Origin: Caulobacteraceae bacterium
GTDB lineage: Bacteria > Pseudomonadota > Alphaproteobacteria > Caulobacterales > Caulobacteraceae
Assembly (NCBI GenBank): GCA_003164925.1
Contig: PLRV01000058.1
Location: 1-42,756 of the forward strand
Length of the DNA stretch: 42,756 nt
Reading direction: 5' to 3'
Shown here piece after piece: positions 3,712 through 36,273 of the stretch. Made by a program: the position numbers and the translations under genes. How positions within the stretch are numbered: the stretch's first letter is position 1; every line of letters starts with the position of its first letter. Below the pieces are notes generated by a model. The model had not been told where the DNA came from. It ran no database searches and saw nothing but the letters and a program-made list of their open reading frames with translations.

Positions 3712-4884
3712 ATGATGGGCCAAGACGGGCTTTCGAAGAAGACGCGCCTGATCCGGGCCGGGGCCAAGACCGAAGCCCGCCTGCGAACGGTGGGCCCGCC
3801 GCTGCAGCGCGGGTCGACCGTTTTGCTCGCCAACGCCCGCGCCCTGTACGACAGCCGCGACACCTATGGGCGCCTGGGTCTATCCATGCAGACCGCCCTG
3901 GCTGAGGCCATCGCTGAGCTGGAGGGAGCCGCGGGCGCCCGCCTGTTCCCTTCGGGCCTGGCGGCGGCGACATCGGCGCTCCTGGCCTTGCTCCAAGGCG
4001 GCGACGAGGTGCTTGCGGTCAACTGCATCTACGGACCGACACGGCGGTTCTGCGACGGTCTGCTCAAGGGCTATGGCGTCAGCACGCGCTATTTCTCGGC
4101 CGACCTCTCGCCCGAGGCGCTGCTGGAGATGGCTGGCCCGGCCACGCGGCTGATTCTGCTGGAATCGCCCGGTTCCCTGACCTTCGAAATCCAGGATGTT
4201 CCCGCCATCGCGGCGCTGGCGCGCCAGCGGGGCATCCTCACCGCTATCGACAACACCTGGGGCGCCGGGTTGCTGTTCGACGCCCTCGGCCACGGCGTGG
4301 ATCTCAGCATCCAGGCCCTGACCAAGTACGTCGGCGGCCATTCGGACGTGTTCATGGGTTCGATCGCCAGCAACGACGCGGGCATCCTGGCCAAGCTGGA
4401 CCGGTTCTTGTGCGACACCGGCATAGCCGTGTCGCCGGACGACGCCTGCTTGATGTTGCGCGGCCTGCGCACGCTTGAGACGCGGTTGCACAGGCATGGC
4501 GAGAATGCGCTGGCCGTGGCGTCCTGGCTGGACGCTCAGCCGCAGGTGCGGCGGGTGTTGTGCCCCGCCCTGCCTGGCGCGCCGGGCCACGCCCTATGGA
4601 AGCGGGACTTCACCGGAATCAACGGCCTGTTCGGCGTCGTTCTACAGCCCGGATCGCCCCTGGCTGTCGAAGCCTTCATCGACGCCCTGACGCTATTTGG
4701 CCTGGGATTTTCCTGGGGCGGCTTCGAGAGTTTGGCGATTCACTGCGATCCCCAGCTCAAACATGCCCCCGACCGCCCCGATCAGGGCGGGCCGCTGGTG
4801 CGGCTGCATGTCGGCCTCGAAGACCCCGCCGACCTGATCGCCGATCTGGGCCAGGCCCTGGCGGCCTATCAGGCCCGCCTCTAG
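3712..4884 (+). CDS. metC: Cystathionine beta-lyase
   Basis: This 390-residue PLP enzyme cleaves cystathionine to homocysteine, pyruvate and ammonia in methionine synthesis. Cys/Met-metabolism PLP family marks are all present: YGR near residue 52, the SGLAA cofactor phosphate loop near 81, Tyr107 in CIYGPT, Asp180 in AIDNTW, and the Schiff-base Lys205 in ALTKYVGGHSDV. The SIQALTKY-GGHSDVFMG context and the SWGGFESL segment fit beta-lyases rather than gamma-synthases. Two ATGs stand in tandem at 3712 and 3715 and I use the first. The stop codon TAG (4882-4884) lies in the edge of a palindromic repeat. The gene is divergent from the amino-acid-binding lipoprotein. Confidence 0.88.
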   Translation: MMGQDGLSKKTRLIRAGAKTEARLRTVGPPLQRGSTVLLANARALYDSRDTYGRLGLSMQTALAEAIAELEGAAGARLFPSGLAAATSALLALLQGGDEVLAVNCIYGPTRRFCDGLLKGYGVSTRYFSADLSPEALLEMAGPATRLILLESPGSLTFEIQDVPAIAALARQRGILTAIDNTWGAGLLFDALGHGVDLSIQALTKYVGGHSDVFMGSIASNDAGILAKLDRFLCDTGIAVSPDDACLMLRGLRTLETRLHRHGENALAVASWLDAQPQVRRVLCPALPGAPGHALWKRDFTGINGLFGVVLQPGSPLAVEAFIDALTLFGLGFSWGGFESLAIHCDPQLKHAPDRPDQGGPLVRLHVGLEDPADLIADLGQALAAYQARL

Positions 4885-4943
4885 AGCCGGATGACTTCTC
4901 TCGAAGTCTGAATCCGGCTCTACATATATGAATCGTGCTCTAG
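4881..4943. repeat. Palindromic GANTC repeat, family 1, copy A (short)
   Basis: GAGCCGGAT (4884-4892) pairs with ATCCGGCTC (4912-4920), and GACTTC with GAAGTC inside it. A shortened second module, GAATCGTGCTCTAG, follows. The first module matches copy D at 35043 almost base for base. The left edge CTAG supplies the metC stop and the right edge CTAG supplies the stop of the convergent methyltransferase gene. It probably also folds as a transcript-ending hairpin on both strands. Confidence 0.9.
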
Positions 4944-5605
4944 AAAATCCCCGGCACCAGCCGAAAGCGGGTCTTGGTCATGTAGACGGCATAGGCCGGG
5001 TCCTGGGCGAGCAATTGCTCCTCGGCGCGCAGACGCAGGATCTGCAGCAGGAACGCCGAGGCGTAGAGCCCGACATTGGTCCACACCGGATTGAGCAGCA
5101 CGAAGCCCACCTGGGTGATGGTGTAGCCCAGGTACATCGGATGGCGCACCAGGCGGTAGGGGCCGCTGTTCTTGACCCCGCGATTGGCGGCCACCAGGCC
5201 GAAGCTGCGCCACAGCGCGGCCTTGGCGTAGAGGCTGAGGAACAGGCCGGCGGCCATCAGGCCGTAGCCGACCGCATCGGACACGAGCGGCTGGCCGCCG
5301 CCGCGAGCCATCAGCGGCGCCGCGGTCGCGGCCATGGCCAACAGCCAGTCCACCGGCAGTTGCGACACCGCCTCGGTGCGTCGGCGCAGCACCATCATGA
5401 CCACCACAATGCCGTCCGACACCAGCAGCAGGACATTGAAGGGATGCTGGCCGAGCGTGGCGCCAATCCGCGCCAGAAGCCCGAAGAACAGCACCAGGAT
5501 GACGGTCTTTTCGATCCAGTCGATAATACGAAGGGTGCTCGCGGCCGGAGCCTTGATCGCCAGTTCCACGCTGTTCGTCCTTGGGATTGCTCGCAGGACG
5601 GCCAT
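4940..5605 (-). CDS. Isoprenylcysteine carboxyl methyltransferase-family membrane protein
   Basis: The 221-residue protein has about five hydrophobic segments and the C-terminal signature of the ICMT/PEMT group: GPYRLVRHPMYLGY near residues 147-160. A distal EEQLLAQDPAYAVY segment then binds S-adenosylmethionine and substrate. In bacteria this group methylates small or lipid substrates at the membrane; prenylated proteins are not expected. The actual substrate cannot be read from the sequence. The start at 5605 is an ATG, and later in-frame starts are possible because the first 25 residues are polar. Upstream on the same strand are clpP, repeat copy B and a terminator, so it probably has its own promoter. 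Its TAG stop is in repeat copy A. Confidence 0.8.
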   Translation of the reverse strand: MAVLRAIPRTNSVELAIKAPAASTLRIIDWIEKTVILVLFFGLLARIGATLGQHPFNVLLLVSDGIVVVMMVLRRRTEAVSQLPVDWLLAMAATAAPLMARGGGQPLVSDAVGYGLMAAGLFLSLYAKAALWRSFGLVAANRGVKNSGPYRLVRHPMYLGYTITQVGFVLLNPVWTNVGLYASAFLLQILRLRAEEQLLAQDPAYAVYMTKTRFRLVPGIF

Positions 5606-5682: not shown

Positions 5683-5712
5683 CGTTTGAATGGCCTGATA
5701 TTCGGCCGCCTT

Positions 5713-5764
5713 GGAGCACGATGTAGAGCCGGATTCAGACTTCGAGAGAAGCCATCCGGCTCTA
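5713..5764. repeat. Palindromic GANTC repeat, family 1, copy B (short, inverted)
   Basis: GAGCCGGATTCAGACTTCGA starts at 5726, and the stem closes with CATCCGGCTC ending at 5762. This is copy A's first module in opposite orientation with one or two changes. A remnant GAGCACGAT of the second module stands at 5713-5721. The bases just beyond, CTAG, contain the TAG stop of clpP on the minus strand. Confidence 0.88.
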
Positions 5765-6388
5765 GCTTTTCTTCGCCGCTTCCTCAGCCGCTTCGCGGCT
5801 TTCATAGACGTGGTCGATCAGGCCCCAGGCCTTGGCTTCGTCGGCGGTCATGAAGTGATCTCGGTCCAGCACGCGCTCGATCTCTTCGACCGGCTGGCCG
5901 GTGTGCTTGGCGTAGATCTCATTCAGCCGGCGCTTGGTCTTGATGATGTCCTGGGCGTGGCGCTCGATGTCGGAGGCTTGGCCGGAGAATCCGCCGGAGG
6001 GCTGGTGCACCATGATCCGCGCGTTGGGCAAGGCGACGCGCTGGCCCGTGGCCCCGGCGCACAGCAGGAACGAGCCCATGGAGGCGGCCATGCCCATGCA
6101 CACGGTGGAAACCGGGCTGCGGATGTATTGCATGGTGTCGTAGATCGCCAGGCCGGAGGTGACCACGCCGCCGGGCGAGTTGATGTACATGGAGATTTCC
6201 TTCTTCGGGTTCTCCGATTCCAGGAACAGCAGTTGGGCGCAAATCAGCGCCGACATGCCATCCTCGACCGGTCCGTTGAGGAAAATGATCCGCTCCTTCA
6301 GCAGGCGCGAAAAGATGTCGTAGGCGCGCTCGCCTCGGCTGGTCTGCTCGACCACCATGGGAACGAGGTTGAGCATGTGATCGCGCAT
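5762..6388 (-). CDS. clpP: ATP-dependent Clp protease proteolytic subunit
   Basis: The 208-residue serine protease forms the tetradecameric barrel that degrades substrates unfolded by ClpX or ClpA; in Caulobacter it is essential for cell-cycle proteolysis. The catalytic triad is visible: Ser103 in GMAASMGS, His128 in MVHQPSGG and Asp177 in DRDHFM, aligned by spacing with E. coli ClpP. YINSPGG (the oxyanion region) is at 68-74. The N-terminal [17 protein letters not shown] is standard. Length matches the family. The stop TAG is in repeat copy B. tig lies 140 bases upstream on the same strand, the usual tig-clpP order, but clpX is not immediately downstream. Confidence 0.97.
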
Positions 6389-12213: not shown

Positions 12214-12298
12214 TGGTGCGGGCGGAGGGACTCGAACCCCCACGCCGTGAAGCGTTCGGACCTAAACCGAGTGCGTCTACCAATTCCGCCACGCCCGC
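12214..12298 (-). tRNA. tRNA-Leu (anticodon UAG)
   Basis: On the minus strand the gene begins GCGGGCGTGGCGGAATTGG and ends CGCCCGC-A-CCA, so the CCA end is encoded. The anticodon arm is CTCGG-TTTAGGT-CCGAA, giving anticodon UAG, which reads CUA and other CUN leucine codons. A long variable arm (AACGCTTCACGGCGT) marks a class II tRNA, and the T-arm GGGGGTTCGAGTCCCTC is canonical. A TTGACC hexamer at 12338-12343 on the minus strand is a candidate -35 element, without a good -10 partner. Confidence 0.97.
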
Positions 12299-29452: not shown

Positions 29453-30103
29453 ATGCCTGAGGTTGTTCTGTCCGGCGCCGCCGGCCGGATCGAGGGACGA
29501 TATTCCCCGGGAAAGACGGAAACGGCGCCTATCGCCCTGATCCTGCATGCTCACCCCAAGGCCGGCGGGCATATGAACAACCCGGTTTCGGTTCAACTCT
29601 TTCATCTGTTCATGAAGCGGGGCTTTTCCACGCTGCGCTTCAATTTCCGGGGCGTGGGACGCAGCCAGGGCGAATTCGACTCCGGCATCGGCGAGCTGGC
29701 CGATGCGGCCACCGCGCTGGACTGGCTGCAGACGACCAATCCCACCGCCTCGCAATGCTGGGTCGCCGGCTATAGCTTTGGCGCCTGGGTCAGCATGCAG
29801 CTTCTGATGCGCCGGCCGGACACCGATGGGTTCATCTCTGTCTCGCCGCCCACCAATATGTACGATTTCAGCTTCCTGGCGCCGTGCCCGGCCTCGGGCC
29901 TGATCCTGCATGGCTCGGCCGACACCGTCGTGCCGCCGGTGGAAGTGGAGCGGGTGGTGTCCAAGCTGCGCACCCAGAAGGGCATCGTGATCGACTATGA
30001 ACTGGTCGAGAACGCGAGCCACTTCTGGCAGGAGCACATGGGCGACGTGGAGCGGCGCGTGGGGGCCTATCTGGATAAGCGGCTGGAGGCCAAGCCCGCC
30101 TGA
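29453..30103 (+). CDS. Cytoplasmic alpha/beta hydrolase
   Basis: This 216-residue protein belongs to the group of short alpha/beta hydrolases annotated as dienelactone-hydrolase-like. LILHAHPKAGGHMNNPV (oxyanion region), LRFNFRGVGRSQGEF, the nucleophile Ser108 in AGYSFGAWVS, Asp157 in LHGSADTVVPP and His190 in NASHFW give a complete triad. It has no signal peptide. GGAGAG lies upstream of the ATG. Its natural substrate is not known. It is divergent from the iscR operon and shares that 190-bp control region, so a link to stress or Fe-S status is possible but unproven. Confidence 0.88.
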   Translation: MPEVVLSGAAGRIEGRYSPGKTETAPIALILHAHPKAGGHMNNPVSVQLFHLFMKRGFSTLRFNFRGVGRSQGEFDSGIGELADAATALDWLQTTNPTASQCWVAGYSFGAWVSMQLLMRRPDTDGFISVSPPTNMYDFSFLAPCPASGLILHGSADTVVPPVEVERVVSKLRTQKGIVIDYELVENASHFWQEHMGDVERRVGAYLDKRLEAKPA

Positions 30104-30108
30104 CCGGC

Positions 30109-30214
30109 TAAGAGCATGATGGGTTTAGGCGGAATCGCCTAAACGCTGAATCGTGCCCTAGATTCAAATATGGTGAGCCGGATTCAGACTTCGAGAGACG
30201 TCATCCGGTTCTAT
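30109..30214. repeat. Palindromic GANTC repeat, family 1, copy C (full length, inverted)
   Basis: This is the reverse complement of copy D with only four differences over 30111-30213. Module 2 spans AGAGCATGAT to CCCTAG and contains the stem GTTTAGGCG/CGCCTAAAC. Module 1 spans GAGCCGGATT to CCGGTTCTA. It lies between the convergent hydrolase and anmK genes and its edge contains the anmK stop. The hydrolase gene stops with TGA before the repeat. Four GANTC sites are intact. Confidence 0.92.
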
Positions 30215-31320
30215 CCTGACGTGATCCGGCCGCCGGTCATGGACGCAGGCACGCCCGTAGTCCCCGGAAAGCTGATCGCCAGACCTCGCCAGGTGCGCAC
30301 GGCCAGATAGGCGAAGGCCTCGGCCTCGATCGCATCCCCGCGCCAGCCCTGATCCTCGGCGGTGGACACCGCAACGCCCGCCTTCTGGCGGATGGCCTCA
30401 AGCAGCACCGGATTATGGCGCCCGCCGCCCGTGACGACGATCTGGCTCGGACGCTCCGGGCTGGCCTTAACCCCTATGGCCACGGCGGCGGCGGCAAAGG
30501 CGGTCAAGGTCGCCGCGCCGTCCTGCAGCGACAGATGCTCCACCGGCCCCAGCGAAAAGTCATAGCGATCGAGGGATTTTGCGCCCCGTGTCGCAAAATA
30601 CGGATGATCGAGGTAAGCCCGCACCACATCCTCATGCACCCGCCCGGCCCGGGCCAGGGCGCCGCCTTCGTCCAGCCGCCGGTCGGTGCGGGCCTGCACC
30701 CACAGGTCGATCATGCCGTTGGCCGGCCCCGTGTCGAAGGCCGTCAGCGTTCCGTCCCGGCCCGCCAGGGTGATATTGCCCACGCCGCCCAGGTTGAGCA
30801 CCGCCACCGGACCGCTCAGTCCGGACCAGCGCAGGACGGCGGCGTGGTAGATCGGCGCCAGGGGCGCGCCCTGGCCTCCCGCGGCCACATCGTCCGAACG
30901 GAAATCGAACGCGACCGGCAAGCCAAGGCCCCGGGCCAGGATATCGGCCTCGCCCAACTGAACCGTGCGCCCTTCGGCGCGGGTGCGTCCGGGCGGTTCG
31001 TGCCACACCGTCTGGCCGTGGAAGCCCACGAGGTCCAGGTCGACCGACCTCAGCCCATGTTCCGCCAGAAAACTCAGCGCCGCAGCCAGATGCTCCTGCG
31101 CCACCGCGCGGGCCGCCGGGGCGAAGGAGGCCGGTTCGGGTGCATCCCATGGCCAGGCGCGGGCGTCCGCGGTGGCCTGTTCCACCAGGGCTCGGGTGTG
31201 GGCGGACAGTTTGCGCTCGCCCGCCGGACCGAAGGCGAAGATCGCCTCGCCGTCGGTCTCCAGCACCGCCATGTCGACGGCGTCCAGCGAGGTGCCGCTC
31301 ATGAATCCAAGGACGCGCAT
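30211..31320 (-). CDS. anmK: Anhydro-N-acetylmuramic acid kinase
   Basis: The product is 369 residues from the ATG at 31320 ([20 protein letters not shown]), with AGAGG five bases upstream; a GTG two codons earlier is less likely. Family marks are [11 protein letters not shown] (ATP loop), [54 protein letters not shown] and [15 protein letters not shown]. It phosphorylates and opens 1,6-anhydro-MurNAc released from peptidoglycan so the sugar can be reused. The stop TAG lies in repeat copy C. It is divergent from tyrS, as in many alphaproteobacteria. Confidence 0.95.
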
Positions 31321-31432
31321 CAACACCTCTGCCGGAACCTTGCCTCAGCCTTGGCCTGAGCCTTGGGATCGGTCGCCAGAGCGTGCTACACGCGCCCACG
31401 CATTTGCAAAAGCCGTGTTCGCGAACTCCATC

Positions 31433-32704
31433 ATGTCCCAGACCGATATCGCCTCCTTCAAGCCCAAGTCCGATTTCGTGCGGGTGCTGCAGGAGCGCGG
31501 TTATATCCATCAGGTCACCGACATCGAGGGCCTGGACAAGGCCGCGAGCGAAGGGGTGATCACCGCCTACATCGGTTTCGACGCCACCGCATCCAGCCTG
31601 CACGTGGGCTCGCTGATCCAGATCATGATGCTGCGCCGCCTGCAGCAGACCGGTCACCGGCCCCTGCCCCTGATGGGCGGCGGAACGACCAAGGTGGGCG
31701 ACCCGTCGGACAAAGACACTCAACGGCCGCTGCTGACCGACGCGCAGATCGCCGACAATATCGCGGGCATCAAGACGGTGTTCGAAAAATTCCTGCGTTT
31801 TGGCTCGGGCCCTACCGACGCTGTGATGGACGACAACGCCCGATGGCTGGACGCCCTGGGCTATGTGCAGTTCCTGCGCGAGTACGGGGTGCACTTCACC
31901 ATCAACCGCATGCTCACCTTCGACAGCGTCAAGCGGCGACTGGAGCGCGAACAGCCCCTCACCTTCCTCGAATTCAACTACATGCTGATGCAGGCGACCG
32001 ACTTTCTGGAGCTGAACCGGCGCTATGGCTGCGTGCTGCAGATGGGCGGTTCGGATCAGTGGGGCAATATCGTCAATGGCGTGGAGTTGGTGCGGCGGAT
32101 GGATTCCAAGCCCGCCTACGGCTTGACCACGCCCCTGCTGACCACGGCCTCCGGCGCCAAGATGGGCAAGACGGTGTCCGGCGCCATGTGGCTGAACGCG
32201 GATCTGTTGAGCCCCTATGACTACTGGCAGTTCTGGCGCAACACCGAGGATGGCGACGTGGGCCGCTTCATGAAGCTGTTCACCGACCTGCCCCTGGAGG
32301 AGATCGCTCGCTACGAGGCGCTGCGGGGGGCGGAGATCAACGAGGCCAAGAAGGTGTTGGCGGACGAGGCCGCCACCTTGCTGCACGGCGCGGACGCGGC
32401 GCGAACGGCGCGAACGGCGGCCGAACAGGCGTTTGAGCAAGGCGGTCTGTCGGCCGACCTGCCGACCCTCATGACGCCGGCGACGGACCTGGAAGCCGGC
32501 GTGCCCCTGGCCAACCTGGCGGTGGAAGCAGGCCTCGCCGGCTCGCGCTCTGATGCGCGTCGGCTGGCGCAAGGCGGCGGCCTCAGGCTGAACGACGTGG
32601 CCGAACCCGACGCCGGGCGACTGGTGACCCTGGCCGACCTGAAGGACGGCGCGATCAAGATCGCCGCCGGCAAGAAAAAAATCGTGCTGATCAAGCCCAT
32701 CTGA
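31433..32704 (+). CDS. tyrS: Tyrosyl-tRNA synthetase
   Basis: The 423-residue class I synthetase charges tRNA-Tyr. It starts at ATG 31433 ([16 protein letters not shown]); an in-frame GTG at 31415 is possible. [16 protein letters not shown] carries the HIGH-type motif, [14 protein letters not shown] and [14 protein letters not shown] bind tyrosine, and KMGKTVSGA is the KMSKS-type loop. A C-terminal S4-like RNA-binding domain ([18 protein letters not shown]) completes the bacterial TyrRS. bcp follows after 15 bases on the same strand. Confidence 0.97.
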
Positions 32705-32719
32705 CGAGAGGATTGCGCC

Positions 32720-33187
32720 ATGCCCCTGGAACCTGGCGTCCAAGCGCCCGATTTTGATCTACCCACCGACGCCGGCGGCGGCGCCAGCCTGACGGCCCTG
32801 CGGGGCAAAAAGGTCGTGGTTTATTTCTATCCCAAGGACGACACCTCGGGTTGCACCTCGCAGGCCAAGGCCTTCTCCGAGGCCAAGGGCGACTTCGACA
32901 ATGCCAGCGCAATCGTCATCGGAATCTCCAAGGACTCCGTGGCCAGCCACGCCAAATTTCGCGCCAAATACGACCTGACCATCGCCCTGGCTTCGGACGT
33001 GGAGGGCAAGGTCGTGGAAGCCTATGGCGCCTGGGTCGAAAAGAGCATGTACGGCCGCAAATACATGGGCATCGATCGCTCGACCTTCCTCATCGACGGG
33101 CAAGGCGTGATCCGGGCCGTTTGGCGCAAGGTCAAGGTGCCCGGCCATGTGCAGGCGGTTCTCAAGACTGTCCAAGATTTAGCCTGA
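32720..33187 (+). CDS. bcp: Thioredoxin-dependent peroxiredoxin, Bcp/PrxQ family
   Basis: The 155-residue peroxiredoxin reduces hydrogen peroxide and organic peroxides. The peroxidatic Cys45 is in YFYPKDDTSGCTSQAK, and DRSTFLIDGQGVI and WRKVKVPGHV are characteristic. The resolving cysteine found five residues later in E. coli Bcp (CxxxxC) is replaced by Lys50, so this is a 1-Cys variant needing an external thiol. GAGAGGA precedes the start. It is closely spaced with tyrS and probably co-transcribed. Confidence 0.93.
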   Translation: MPLEPGVQAPDFDLPTDAGGGASLTALRGKKVVVYFYPKDDTSGCTSQAKAFSEAKGDFDNASAIVIGISKDSVASHAKFRAKYDLTIALASDVEGKVVEAYGAWVEKSMYGRKYMGIDRSTFLIDGQGVIRAVWRKVKVPGHVQAVLKTVQDLA

Positions 33188-33443
33188 GACGCCCTAGTCG
33201 CCGCTCGCGTAAAAGGCGAATTATCCGCGACCCCGAGCGGTCGTCGCCCGTTGAACTTGGCATTGCCTGGTGCAACGACAGCATAGCCCTGCGGATTTCG
33301 GTCCAGCTACTCATCGCGCGCAAAGTGCTATTGCGAGAGCCCATTCAGCAGCATCGCGCGCGCGTAGCGGGAAAAGTGTTGCCTATTCCTTACTGACCGT
33401 TTCATATCCCCGCCGGAACCTTGGCCAGTGGGGGCGGCGGTTT

Positions 33444-34595
33444 ATGCGTTTGGATAATCAGGCCCGGCTGCACGCCGCTTTCGAGGACATTTTCCCCGAA
33501 CGGCATATCTATGTGCGTTCGGGCGGGGATATGCGGGCCATCGTCCTGACCCCTGCCAAACAAGCTCTGGCGGCCTCGTTTGGCGGCCTGTGCGCCCTTT
33601 GGATGGGCGTGTGCACCGCCATCATGCTGGTCCATGTCTTTTCGGCCGGCGCCGATCCGGAGGCGGCCAAGATCCGCTCCTATTACGAACGGCTGATCGC
33701 GGACCGTCAGGCGCGCCTCAATAGCGCCATCACCCAGCTCAGCGACAATTCCGGCGGCGTTGAGCAGTTGGCCGCCGATGTTGAAAAGCGCAACGCGGCC
33801 TTGGGCGCTTTGATCGGTGATGTGAAGGATGCGCCGGGCCTCGCCCAGGCGGTCAAGCCGCGCACGGATTCCAATGGCTTTGGCACGCCGCTGCAGCGCA
33901 TCCGGTCGGTCAGGACCGATCAGGACCGGCTGATAGCCGAGGCTGAAACCTACGCCAAAAGCCGCGCCGATCGCCTGCGCATCGCCATGCGTCTGGCCGG
34001 GCTGGCGCCGGAACACTTCACCGCCGCGGGCGAAGGACTGGGCGGACCCCTGATCGACGCCAAGGATCCTCGCGCCCTGGCCGCAGTGCTGGACGTGGAC
34101 GAGGACTTCGCCTCGCGCATCCGTAACGCGGCCATGGACATGAGCGACTTGCGCGTCCTGGACAACGCAGTGGCCAAGCTGCCCCTGGCCAAGCCGACAG
34201 ACAGCGGCATCAAATCCAGCGGTTTCGGCGTCAGGTTCGACCCGTTCACCGGACGGCCGGCCTTTCACGCGGGCCTCGACTTCGCCGGAACCACCGGCGT
34301 GCCCATCCATGTGACCGCCCCGGGCGTGGTCTCCTTCACCGGGGTGCGCACGGGCTACGGCAACACAATCGAGGTCGACCACGGCGGCGGCTTCAAGACC
34401 CGTTACGCCCACCTTTCCGCCATCAGCGTGAAGGTGGGCCAACATCTGGCCCTGGGCGAGCGCATCGGCGCCATGGGTTCGACCGGACGCTCCACCGGGC
34501 CGCACCTGCACTACGAAGTGTGGGTCAGCGGCCGCGCAGAAAACCCTGATCGTTTCGTGAAGGCAGGCGACTATGTTCAGCAAACAGCAGGATAG
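33444..34595 (+). CDS. M23 (LytM) family metallopeptidase, bactofilin-linked
   Basis: The product is 383 residues from the ATG at 33444 with GGGGG upstream; a longer open frame has no family support. A transmembrane segment (about 42-66) anchors it in the inner membrane. A periplasmic helical region with coiled-coil character follows (75-180), then the peptidase domain (about 255-375) with zinc ligands His275 and Asp279 (HAGLD) and His354/His356 (HLHYEVW), plus His323. All catalytic positions are kept, so it should cut peptidoglycan cross-links. It overlaps the bactofilin gene by 23 bases, the conserved LdpA/LmdC-type pair in which bactofilin positions the peptidase. Confidence 0.92.
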   Translation: MRLDNQARLHAAFEDIFPERHIYVRSGGDMRAIVLTPAKQALAASFGGLCALWMGVCTAIMLVHVFSAGADPEAAKIRSYYERLIADRQARLNSAITQLSDNSGGVEQLAADVEKRNAALGALIGDVKDAPGLAQAVKPRTDSNGFGTPLQRIRSVRTDQDRLIAEAETYAKSRADRLRIAMRLAGLAPEHFTAAGEGLGGPLIDAKDPRALAAVLDVDEDFASRIRNAAMDMSDLRVLDNAVAKLPLAKPTDSGIKSSGFGVRFDPFTGRPAFHAGLDFAGTTGVPIHVTAPGVVSFTGVRTGYGNTIEVDHGGGFKTRYAHLSAISVKVGQHLALGERIGAMGSTGRSTGPHLHYEVWVSGRAENPDRFVKAGDYVQQTAG

Positions 34596-35046
34596 GCGAC
34601 CCATTTCGGGCAAGGCCTCGCTCCCGGCGCCCATGCCGATGGAGGCCGGGCGCAAATCGGTCAAGGTGGCCTCGGTCATATCCGAGGATCTCGTTGTCAA
34701 TGGCGGCATGATCAGCGAAGGCGAAGTGCATATCGACGGCAAGGTGCACGGCGACGTGAAGGTCGCCCGCCTGACCCTGGGCGAAACCGGCGTCATCGAA
34801 GGCTCGGTCACCGCCGAGACCGTCGAGGTGCGCGGCACGGTGACGGGGCCGATCACGGGAAAGCTGGTGCGCCTGTTCGCCACCTGCCACGTGGAAGGCG
34901 ACATCACGCACGAGCAGTTGGCGATGGAGACCGGGGCTCACTTCCAGGGCCGCAGCCTCAAGCTGCAGCGGCCGGGGGCCGCGGCGCCCGCGCCCCAACA
35001 ACTGTCCTCGGGCGTGATCGCGCTGAACCCCGCCGTGGCGGGCTAG
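34573..35046 (+). CDS. bacA: Bactofilin (polymer-forming cytoskeletal protein)
   Basis: The 157-residue protein has a disordered N-terminus (MFSKQQDRRPISGKA), a right-handed beta-helix core of repeated short strands (about 35-125: VISEDLVVNGG, GEVHIDGKVHGDVKVARLTL, GVIEGSVTAETVEVRGTVTG) and a Pro/Ala-rich tail. Bactofilins polymerise without nucleotide at the inner membrane and recruit cell-wall enzymes; Caulobacter BacA localises at the stalk base with PbpC. The start overlaps the M23 gene, indicating translational coupling. Its stop TAG is in repeat copy D. The name bacA rests on family and context. Confidence 0.93.
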   Translation: MFSKQQDRRPISGKASLPAPMPMEAGRKSVKVASVISEDLVVNGGMISEGEVHIDGKVHGDVKVARLTLGETGVIEGSVTAETVEVRGTVTGPITGKLVRLFATCHVEGDITHEQLAMETGAHFQGRSLKLQRPGAAAPAPQQLSSGVIALNPAVAG

Positions 35047-35148
35047 AGCCGGATGACTTCTCTCGAAGTCTGAATCCGGCTCACCATATTTGAATCTAGA
35101 GCACGATTCAGCGTTTAGGCGATTCCGCCTAAACCCATCGTGCTCTAG
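35043..35148. repeat. Palindromic GANTC repeat, family 1, copy D (full length, reference copy)
   Basis: The 106-bp element begins and ends with CTAG. Module 1 (35046-35082) is GAGCCGGAT...ATCCGGCTC with an internal GACTTC/GAAGTC stem. After ACCATATTTGAATCTAG, module 2 is GAGCACGATT...ATCGTGCTC with an inner stem GTTTAGGCG/CGCCTAAAC. It separates the convergent bacA and prfB genes, and its two CTAG edges hold both stop codons. It carries four GANTC sites. Confidence 0.95.
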
Positions 35149-36273
35149 GAAATGGCGTCTCCGCCGTCACGCGTGACGCCCACGCGCTGAGCCAGGGCCG
35201 CGCCCATAAATGCGTCCAGGTCCCCGTCCAGTACGCCGGCGGAATCAGAGGTCTCCACGTTGGTGCGCAGGTCCTTGACCATCTGATAGGGCTGCAGGAC
35301 GTAGGAGCGGATCTGGTGGCCCCATCCGATGTCGGTCTTGGCGTCGGCCACAGCCTGGGCCTCGGCCTCCCGCCTCTGCAGTTCCCGTTCGTATAGGCGC
35401 GCGCGCAGCATTTTCCATGCCTCATCGCGGTTCTGGTGCTGCGAACGACCCGCCTGGCACGCCACCACCACGCCGGTGGGGATGTGGGTCAAGCGTACAG
35501 CCGAGTCGGTCTTGTTGACGTGCTGGCCGCCCGCGCCCGACGAGCGATAGGTGTCGGTGCGCACGTCCGCCGGATTGATCTCGATCTCGATCGTATCGTC
35601 CACCACCGGATAAACCCACGCCGAGGCGAAGCTGGTATGTCGTCGGGCGTTGGAGTCGAACGGCGAGATGCGCACCAGGCGATGCACCCCCGCCTCGGTC
35701 TTCAGCCAGCCGTAGGCGTTGGTTCCCTTGATCTGCAAGGTCGCCGACTTGATCCCGGCCTGCTCTCCGGCCGTCTCCTCGACGATCTCCACGCTCATGC
35801 CGTGGGCGACGGCCCAGCGCGTGTACATGCGCAACAGCATCAGGGCCCAATCGTTGGACTCCGTACCGCCCGCTCCGGAATTGATTTCCACATAGCAGTC
35901 GTTGCCGTCAGCCTCCCCCGACAGCAGCGCCTCCAACTCCGCCCGACCGGCTCGCTCCTTCAACGCCTTGAGTTGGGCGCACACGTCATCCATGGAGGCT
36001 TCGTCGCCCTCGGCGTCAGCCATCTCGGCGAATTCGACCGCGTCGCTCAGCTCGCGCTCAAGGGCGCGGATGGTGTCAACCTGGCCAGCCAGACGATTGC
36101 GCTCGCGCATGGTGGTCTGGGCGCGGGCGGCGTCATCCCACAGAGTCGGATCCTCGACCCGGGCGTTCAGCTCATCGAGCTGTCGGAGCGCAGGCTCCCA
36201 GTCAAAGACGCCTCCTGAGCAAGTCGATCGACTGCTCGATGTCGGCCGCAGAGGCCTCGACATCCGCTCTCAT
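35145..36273 (-). CDS. prfB: Peptide chain release factor 2, with programmed +1 frameshift
   Basis: RF2 ends translation at UGA and UAA. The 375-residue protein comes from two frames. The first is 23 codons from the ATG at 36273 ([19 protein letters not shown]) to CTT. The in-frame TGA at 36204-36202 follows, and reading resumes +1 at GAC (36203-36201) with [19 protein letters not shown]. The SPF recognition motif is in [11 protein letters not shown] and the catalytic GGQ in [17 protein letters not shown]. Reading the second frame alone gives a false N-terminus. It lies 84 bases downstream of the PBP1A gene on the same strand and ends at TAG in repeat copy D. Confidence 0.96.
36201..36218 (-). 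promoter_or_regulatory. RF2 autoregulatory frameshift site
   Basis: On the minus strand the sequence is CAGGAGGCGTCTTTGAC. The Shine-Dalgarno-like AGGAGG stands three bases before the slippery codon CTT, followed by the TGA stop and C. This is the same layout as in E. coli prfB (SD-like element, CUU UGA C). Low RF2 lets the ribosome pause at TGA and shift forward, raising RF2 synthesis. Confidence 0.95.

Follow-up and report, generated by a model that had tools for sequence, protein, structure and literature searches.

A repeat of about 106 bp, which occurs in multiple copies and carries no transposase gene, lies at gene ends on contig PLRV01000058.1 of the Caulobacteraceae bacterium assembly GCA_003164925.1. 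The whole stretch analyzed (42,756 nucleotides, positions 1 to 42,756 of the forward strand) is referred to as the window, and its four copies of the repeat as copies A to D. We consider it likely that the repeat is a nonautonomous miniature inverted-repeat transposable element (MITE), mobilized by a transposase of the IS630/Tc1-mariner type, which inserts at the TA of the sequence YTAR (Y, C or T; R, A or G) in such a way that stop codons are rebuilt as TAG.

According to the proposed mechanism, an IS630/Tc1-mariner-type transposase would mobilize the nonautonomous repeat, and insertion at the TA of YTAR would duplicate this TA to give Y-TA/GAGC...GCTC/TA-R. Either strand of YTAR spells TAA or TAG, and in these GC-rich genomes many of the tolerable targets would thus be stop codons. 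The favored target would be a single YTAR shared by two convergent genes as overlapping stops. TAR is present on either strand of the target, and the body of the repeat has G as its first base in both orientations. A TAA or TAG stop that receives the repeat would therefore become an in-frame TAG from either side, and the proteins would remain unchanged.

Repeat copies and stop codons across the genome

When copy D was used as the query, at least 40 places in the 3.44-Mb draft genome were matched at an E value of ≤1.8e-26. This number is a lower bound, with 40 of 122 candidates scored and copies A and B outside the list; 24 weaker rows of the search fell within the same 40 copies on the opposite strand. 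Two of the 40 copies lack the first 24 to 30 bases, and two contain runs of N. The draft consists of 100 contigs, and contigs C15, C28, C30, C54, C65, C74, and C96 end in or near a copy. Since contigs end at copies, the assembly probably breaks at the repeat and copies may be missing. The median pairwise difference among 32 ungapped copies was 8 of 106 bases, and with such low divergence the spread of the repeat looks fairly recent. A degenerate second element with 71% identity was found at L029:1193-1277, a few hundred bases from a full copy; it perhaps belongs to an older related family.

The constant part of the repeat is TA-GAGC...GCTC-TA, with symmetric TAGAGC ends, and each of the 40 copies holds 2 to 4 GANTC sites. 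The base before the left TA was C or T in 34 of the 36 copies that have TA there, and the base after the right TA was G or A in 30 of 30. TA was present at both edges in 28 of the 40 copies, and the reconstructed target was YTAR in all 28 (CTAG in 15, TTAG in 7, CTAA in 3, and TTAA in 3). A fixed TA with variable outer bases is the pattern that would be expected from duplication of TA at YTAR.

Gene ends were called with a simple codon-usage caller, not taken from annotation. A gene stop lay exactly at the edge in 23 of the 40 copies (24, 23, and 21 at three score thresholds), and three of these 23 had stops at both edges. All edge stops were TAG except for one TAA at locus L006. Thus, the outcome that the sequence-only reading of the window had set against itself, with most copies lying away from stop codons, is not what the genome-wide tabulation gave. 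For comparison, free YTAR sites drawn from the window and from the loci around the copies, and not from the whole genome, comprised 32 stops, 166 intergenic sites, and 101 sites within genes, so that stops made up 16% of the non-genic sites. The frequency of copies at stops (23/40) was far above that of the free non-genic YTAR sites (32/198; binomial P = 3e-9). None of the 40 copies was inside a called gene, one of them (L019) being misplaced in that count. Among ten partial copies, chosen from pattern matches, seven had a gene stop exactly at the edge.

The copies were also concentrated between convergent genes (22 of 40 copies versus 12 of 94 other gaps; P = 1.5e-6). When only convergent gaps were considered, 18 of 22 copies were at stops, versus 13 of 32 free sites (P = 0.005). 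From this excess, stops that are shared or adjacent would seem to be particularly available, or particularly harmless, as targets. Part of the stop bias must be due to the loss of harmful insertions.

TAGAGC tips of IS630 transposons

IS630-family (DDE_3) transposons of the same family and order are 1.02 to 1.07 kb long, bear a transposase, and have TAGAGC tips. In 12 two-ended copies from 9 genomes (5 from one genome), the left flanking base was Y in 12 of 12 and the right flanking base was R in 11 of 12, and the tips were TAGAGC except for one that was mutated. A called gene stop lay exactly at the edge in 4 of these 12 copies, one of the four having a weak gene score. Some MITE tips equal the tips of insertion sequences over 11 bases, in different genomes (TAGAGCATTCG; TAGAGCGTGAC). 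The IS630 copies in relatives share TAGAGC with the repeat, and agreement past the first bases varies. From these common tips, an IS630-type transposase appears to be the probable mover. In the draft genome itself, only a truncated DDE_3 relative with a single TAGAGC tip (L069) and an unlike DDE_3 gene (L068) were found, and the latter was dropped as a candidate mover on the lack of a TAGAGC tip.

In the accessible part of the paper on ISY100, a member of IS630/Tc1-mariner, 34 of 39 in vitro insertions were in TA with normal duplication, and the reference list of that paper includes a 1991 title that names a CTAG preference for IS630.

Gene ends in relatives without the repeat

The repeat gave no match at an E value of 1e-5 in three genomes of the same genus (G001 to G003), and the gene ends of these genomes therefore show the state without the repeat. 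One of them, G001, is 79% complete; it has a different element with TAGAGC. Orthologue matches with less than 44% identity or with short coverage were excluded from the length comparison. For 28 edge-stopped genes (72 orthologue comparisons), the exact length was found in 11 and a difference of at most 3 residues in 20. The values were similar for 13 nearby control genes whose stops are not at an edge (5 of 13 and 10 of 13, respectively). Because the orthologues mostly end near the same residue, the stops were kept rather than created.

The stop codons of these orthologues were TAG in 38 cases, TGA in 23, and TAA in 11, and those of the control genes were TAG in 19, TAA in 7, and TGA in 4. In the sequence-only reading, orthologues that lack the repeat and already end in TAG at the same residue had counted as evidence against it. 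This was borne out in part: the ends coincide or nearly coincide in many genes, and TAG accounts for 38 of the 72 stops.

Two pairs of convergent genes were especially informative. At locus L044, the two genes, which we take to be hflX and mazG, have stops that overlap in a single CTAG in both G002 and G003; in G001, the stops are 57 bases apart. Here, the element lies in between, and each gene ends with TAG at its own edge. Likewise, a single site serves as the stop of both anmK and the L023R gene in two relatives, CTAG in G002 and TTAG in G003. In the genome under study, these two genes end at the edges of two different copies, an arrangement that suggests rearrangement between copies after insertion. 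If so, spaced copies would serve as break points for rearrangement. In four other pairs that are adjacent in relatives, the stops are 7 to 27 bases apart.

At the relatives' loci, 11 of 55 convergent pairs without an intervening TAGAGC share a YTAR stop, versus 0 of 13 here, the sample of 55 being biased towards these gene ends. When named anmK loci were collected, only 1 of 80 had a convergent partner with both stops readable, and this pair shared CTAG. In a Phenylobacterium record (L153), the anmK orthologue ends in CTAGAGC, possibly through an independent insertion at the same stop.

Related elements in other genomes

TAGAGC...GCTCTA hairpins were present in 97 of 120 Caulobacteraceae genomes, and a backward-pattern control was equally common or commoner in many of them. 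Because the control words are common in GC-rich DNA, this count serves as a rough survey only. The full element is present in genome G015, where 2 of 2 loci have edge stops, and the different two-hairpin element of G001 had edge stops in 7 of 10 cases (15 loci fetched).

The genome of Caulobacter vibrioides DSM 9893 contained 34 two-hairpin junctions. Fifteen loci were fetched, of which 13 had clear edges and 2 were excluded. An edge stop was found in 10 of the 13 (at both edges in 4), 11 were convergent, and the Y..R flanks were present in 13 of 13. This frequency of 10 of 13 exceeded that of the free non-genic YTAR sites (11 stops in 68; P = 2e-6). A mixed sample overlapping this set, made up of 11 of its elements and one from the L153 genome, gave 5 edge stops in 12. 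GANTC was missing from 4 of the 13 C. vibrioides elements. The elements of G001 (L269-L283) and of C. vibrioides (L314-L328) have the same plan, with units of about 52 bp and a linker of 11 to 12 bp, and quite different stems. In three other named genomes, 0, 0, and 1 hairpins were found.

Weighing of the evidence

Several observations weigh against insertion at YTAR with rebuilding of stops. At 17 of the 40 copies, neither edge carries a stop, and three called genes (L017, L035, and L040) extend a short way into a copy. Eight of the 28 edge-stopped genes differ by more than 3 residues from every orthologue, and two of these eight are clearly shorter here (L048L by 23 to 28 residues and L023L by 126 to 145 residues). 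The related repeat of G023, from another genus, had an edge stop at only 1 of 13 loci. None was present at the one locus from G021 or at the one from G024, and the single hairpins of G128 had edge stops in 5 of 15 (15 loci fetched). A search of the genome's own 100-contig draft with one Pfam family found no intact matching transposase. Between near-identical strains, no site was found in both the filled and the empty state at the nucleotide level. Finally, no orthologue match was found for bacA, the gene at the left edge of copy D, in G001 to G003, and for this reason an empty site was not directly seen for copy D.

The strongest alternative is that the repeat is a domesticated bidirectional terminator or a protector of mRNA 3' ends, the stops at its edges being a by-product of its closeness to genes. 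Two very stable hairpins are predicted on either strand: copy D folds into two separate hairpins at -56.6 kcal/mol (z = -10.4), and its opposite strand folds at -60.2 kcal/mol (z = -9.8). The preference for convergent gaps described above also agrees with such a function. However, a scan of positions 29900 to 35400 gave one terminator-like site, at 32735, and none at copies C or D, so that neither copy has the hairpin plus T run of an intrinsic terminator. In a comparison of 39 pairs over 32 copies, 61 cells were broken and only 4 doubly changed, with little sign that pairing has been kept. The same convergent pairs are retained in the same-genus genomes without the repeat, and a TAG that fits the edge to the single base requires a target rule. 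We therefore regard this explanation as improbable. The repeat may have a role at transcript ends, which the sequence-only reading had added to its proposal. Under the preferred reading of a MITE with a YTAR target, the accumulation at stops would result from target choice and the loss of harmful insertions, and not from a transcript-end function. The repeat was also considered as a known Rfam RNA and rejected, since the Rfam scan of the window gave only a tRNA gene (minus strand, 12217-12298).

According to a second alternative, insertion occurs at any place near gene ends and the new TAG truncates or extends the protein, so that the edge stops are simply the insertions that by chance were in frame. 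The two shortened genes named above are in its favor. In contrast, the agreement in length with orthologues is no worse than for the control genes, and in relatives that lack the repeat, two pairs have a common stop at the homologous position. This explanation is thus mostly refuted and highly improbable, and stop creation by truncation was rejected as the main rule on the orthologue lengths. For the earlier proposal of a MITE-like element that targets or recreates stop codons, this means that the MITE-like nature and the TAG at the edges stand, but not a rule of creating stops in coding sequence.

A palindrome of the REP type moved by a RAYT tyrosine transposase is hardly credible: REPs are likewise described as small paired palindromes, often between convergent genes, in the part of PMC3733652 that was available, but the ends here are symmetric with TA on both sides, without the unpaired, one-sided GTAG/CGTC tag of REPs given there, and the tips agree with those of IS630 transposons in related genomes, so that this class was rejected, RAYT genes not having been searched for.

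Copies and genes in the window

All four copies that had been claimed for the window were found at gene ends, three of them (A, C, and D) between convergent genes and copy B between tandem genes (Table 1). The genome search alignment reproduced the full length of C and D, about 106 bp, and their 96% identity, with four differences over 103 aligned bases. The outer ends of the repeat pair at 85% over 13 bases. The six TAG stops assigned to copy edges were confirmed for metC, the methyltransferase, clpP, anmK, bacA, and prfB, as was the hydrolase as the only gene with a stop of its own.

Table 1. Repeat copies of the window, parts of copy D, and genes ending at the copies
Feature	Position	Strand	Remarks
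Copy A	4881..4943	+	Internal deletion; hairpin 2 mostly gone; both tips retained
Copy B	about 5711..5765	-	Internal deletion; far tip mutated
Copy C	30110..30214	-	Full length; right-hand TA lost
Copy D	35043..35148	+	Full length; CTAG target remnants at either end
Presumed TA duplications of copy D	35044-35045 and 35146-35147		Body 35046-35145
Hairpin 1 of copy D	35046..35082	+	Predicted fold, arms
Linker joining the hairpins of copy D	35083..35095	+	13 nt; GAATC site extends to 35096
Hairpin 2 of copy D	35096..35148	+	Own CTAG bounds; GATTC 35121-35125 in terminal loop
metC (Cys/Met PLP enzyme)	3712..4884	+	TAG 4882-4884, left edge of A; Pfam
PEMT/ICMT-type methyltransferase	4940..5605	-	TAG (CTA 4940-4942), right edge of A; Pfam
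clpP	5762..6388	-	TAG (CTA 5762-5764), edge of B; Pfam
Hydrolase	29453..30103	+	Own TGA; end 9 bases from edge site of C; Pfam
anmK	30211..31326	-	TAG (CTA 30211-30213), edge of C; Pfam
bacA (bactofilin)	34573..35046	+	TAG 35044-35046, left edge of D; Pfam
prfB (PCRF and RF-1 domains)	35145..36263	-	TAG (CTA 35145-35147), right edge of D; Pfam

The lengths of the genes at these copies were close to those of their orthologues. AnmK is identical in length in G001 to G003, and the methyltransferase at copy A has the length of its orthologue in one relative. MetC is 2 to 3 residues shorter here, ClpP differs by 2, and PrfB is 1 to 2 residues longer. TAG termination needs release factor 1, and prfB is the gene of release factor 2; the edge-stopped genes, prfB included, end in TAG and would thus depend on release factor 1. 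The window contains 25 CTAG sites, fewer than the roughly 60 that shuffled sequence would give, and several of those that are left serve as gene stops.

Comparison with known systems

Chen and Shapiro reportedly described the CIR (Caulobacter CcrM-associated intergenic repeats) in 2003, as CIR1 to CIR4. The comparisons with CIR, RUP, BOX, and ISY100 made here rest on the accessible parts of PMC10969869, PMC2229807, PMC3049150, and PMC2170065. Like CIR as described in these sources, the repeat is about 110 bp long, has two hairpin arms and a linker with GANTC in a terminal loop, has TA termini (at both ends in 28 of 40 copies), and is intergenic in Caulobacter relatives. In the available part of the review, CIR is listed without a terminal inverted repeat, whereas the outer ends pair here. 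The YTAR target and the edge-stop rule go beyond CIR as reviewed there. The anatomy thus fits a CIR-like repeat, set against descriptions of CIR rather than the CIR1 to CIR4 sequences themselves.

In its accessible part, the 2007 review (PMC2229807) gives the target duplication of CIR as unknown and asks for a mechanism of mobility, and that of the 2024 review (PMC10969869) adds neither. The YTAR target rule, the rule of G as first base of the tips, and the IS630-like ends would supply both. Our literature search, with subscription papers mostly outside its coverage, found no paper that links either IS630 or stop codons with CIR repeats. A wider proposal is that the CIR-like repeats of Caulobacteraceae form one IS630-driven superfamily that lands harmlessly at stops, with movement timed by CcrM methylation of the GANTC in the hairpins. 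We hold this proposal, taken as a whole, to be tentative and rather doubtful. Its superfamily and stop-codon landing part finds support here in sequences from several genera, and the timing by CcrM is speculation.

Compared with the IS630/Tc1-mariner elements themselves, the repeat shares the TA in the target, the TAGAGC tips, and the Y..R flanks of copies in related genomes, but these insertion sequences are about 1.05 kb long with a transposase, and the repeat has none. RUP of Streptococcus pneumoniae, taken together with IS630-Spn1, resembles the repeat in several respects. As far as its source was available, it is a non-coding element of 107 bp with IS630-like ends and TA in the target, and it is over-represented between convergent genes. 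Unlike RUP, however, the repeat touches a stop codon in more than half of its scored copies, and it folds into two separate hairpins, whereas RUP is described as folding by pairing its ends. BOX of S. pneumoniae, according to the part of its source at hand, encodes the stop in 36 of 58 overlaps with coding sequences, without strong evidence of truncation. Its ends are unrelated to those of the repeat, and that part names no stop-preserving target rule for BOX.

Among parallels linked to IS630, RUP comes closest, and for stops encoded by a repeat without truncation the closest precedent is BOX. Landing in a stop and rebuilding it, even when two genes share that stop, would be a simple route to neutrality for a transposon in a dense genome.
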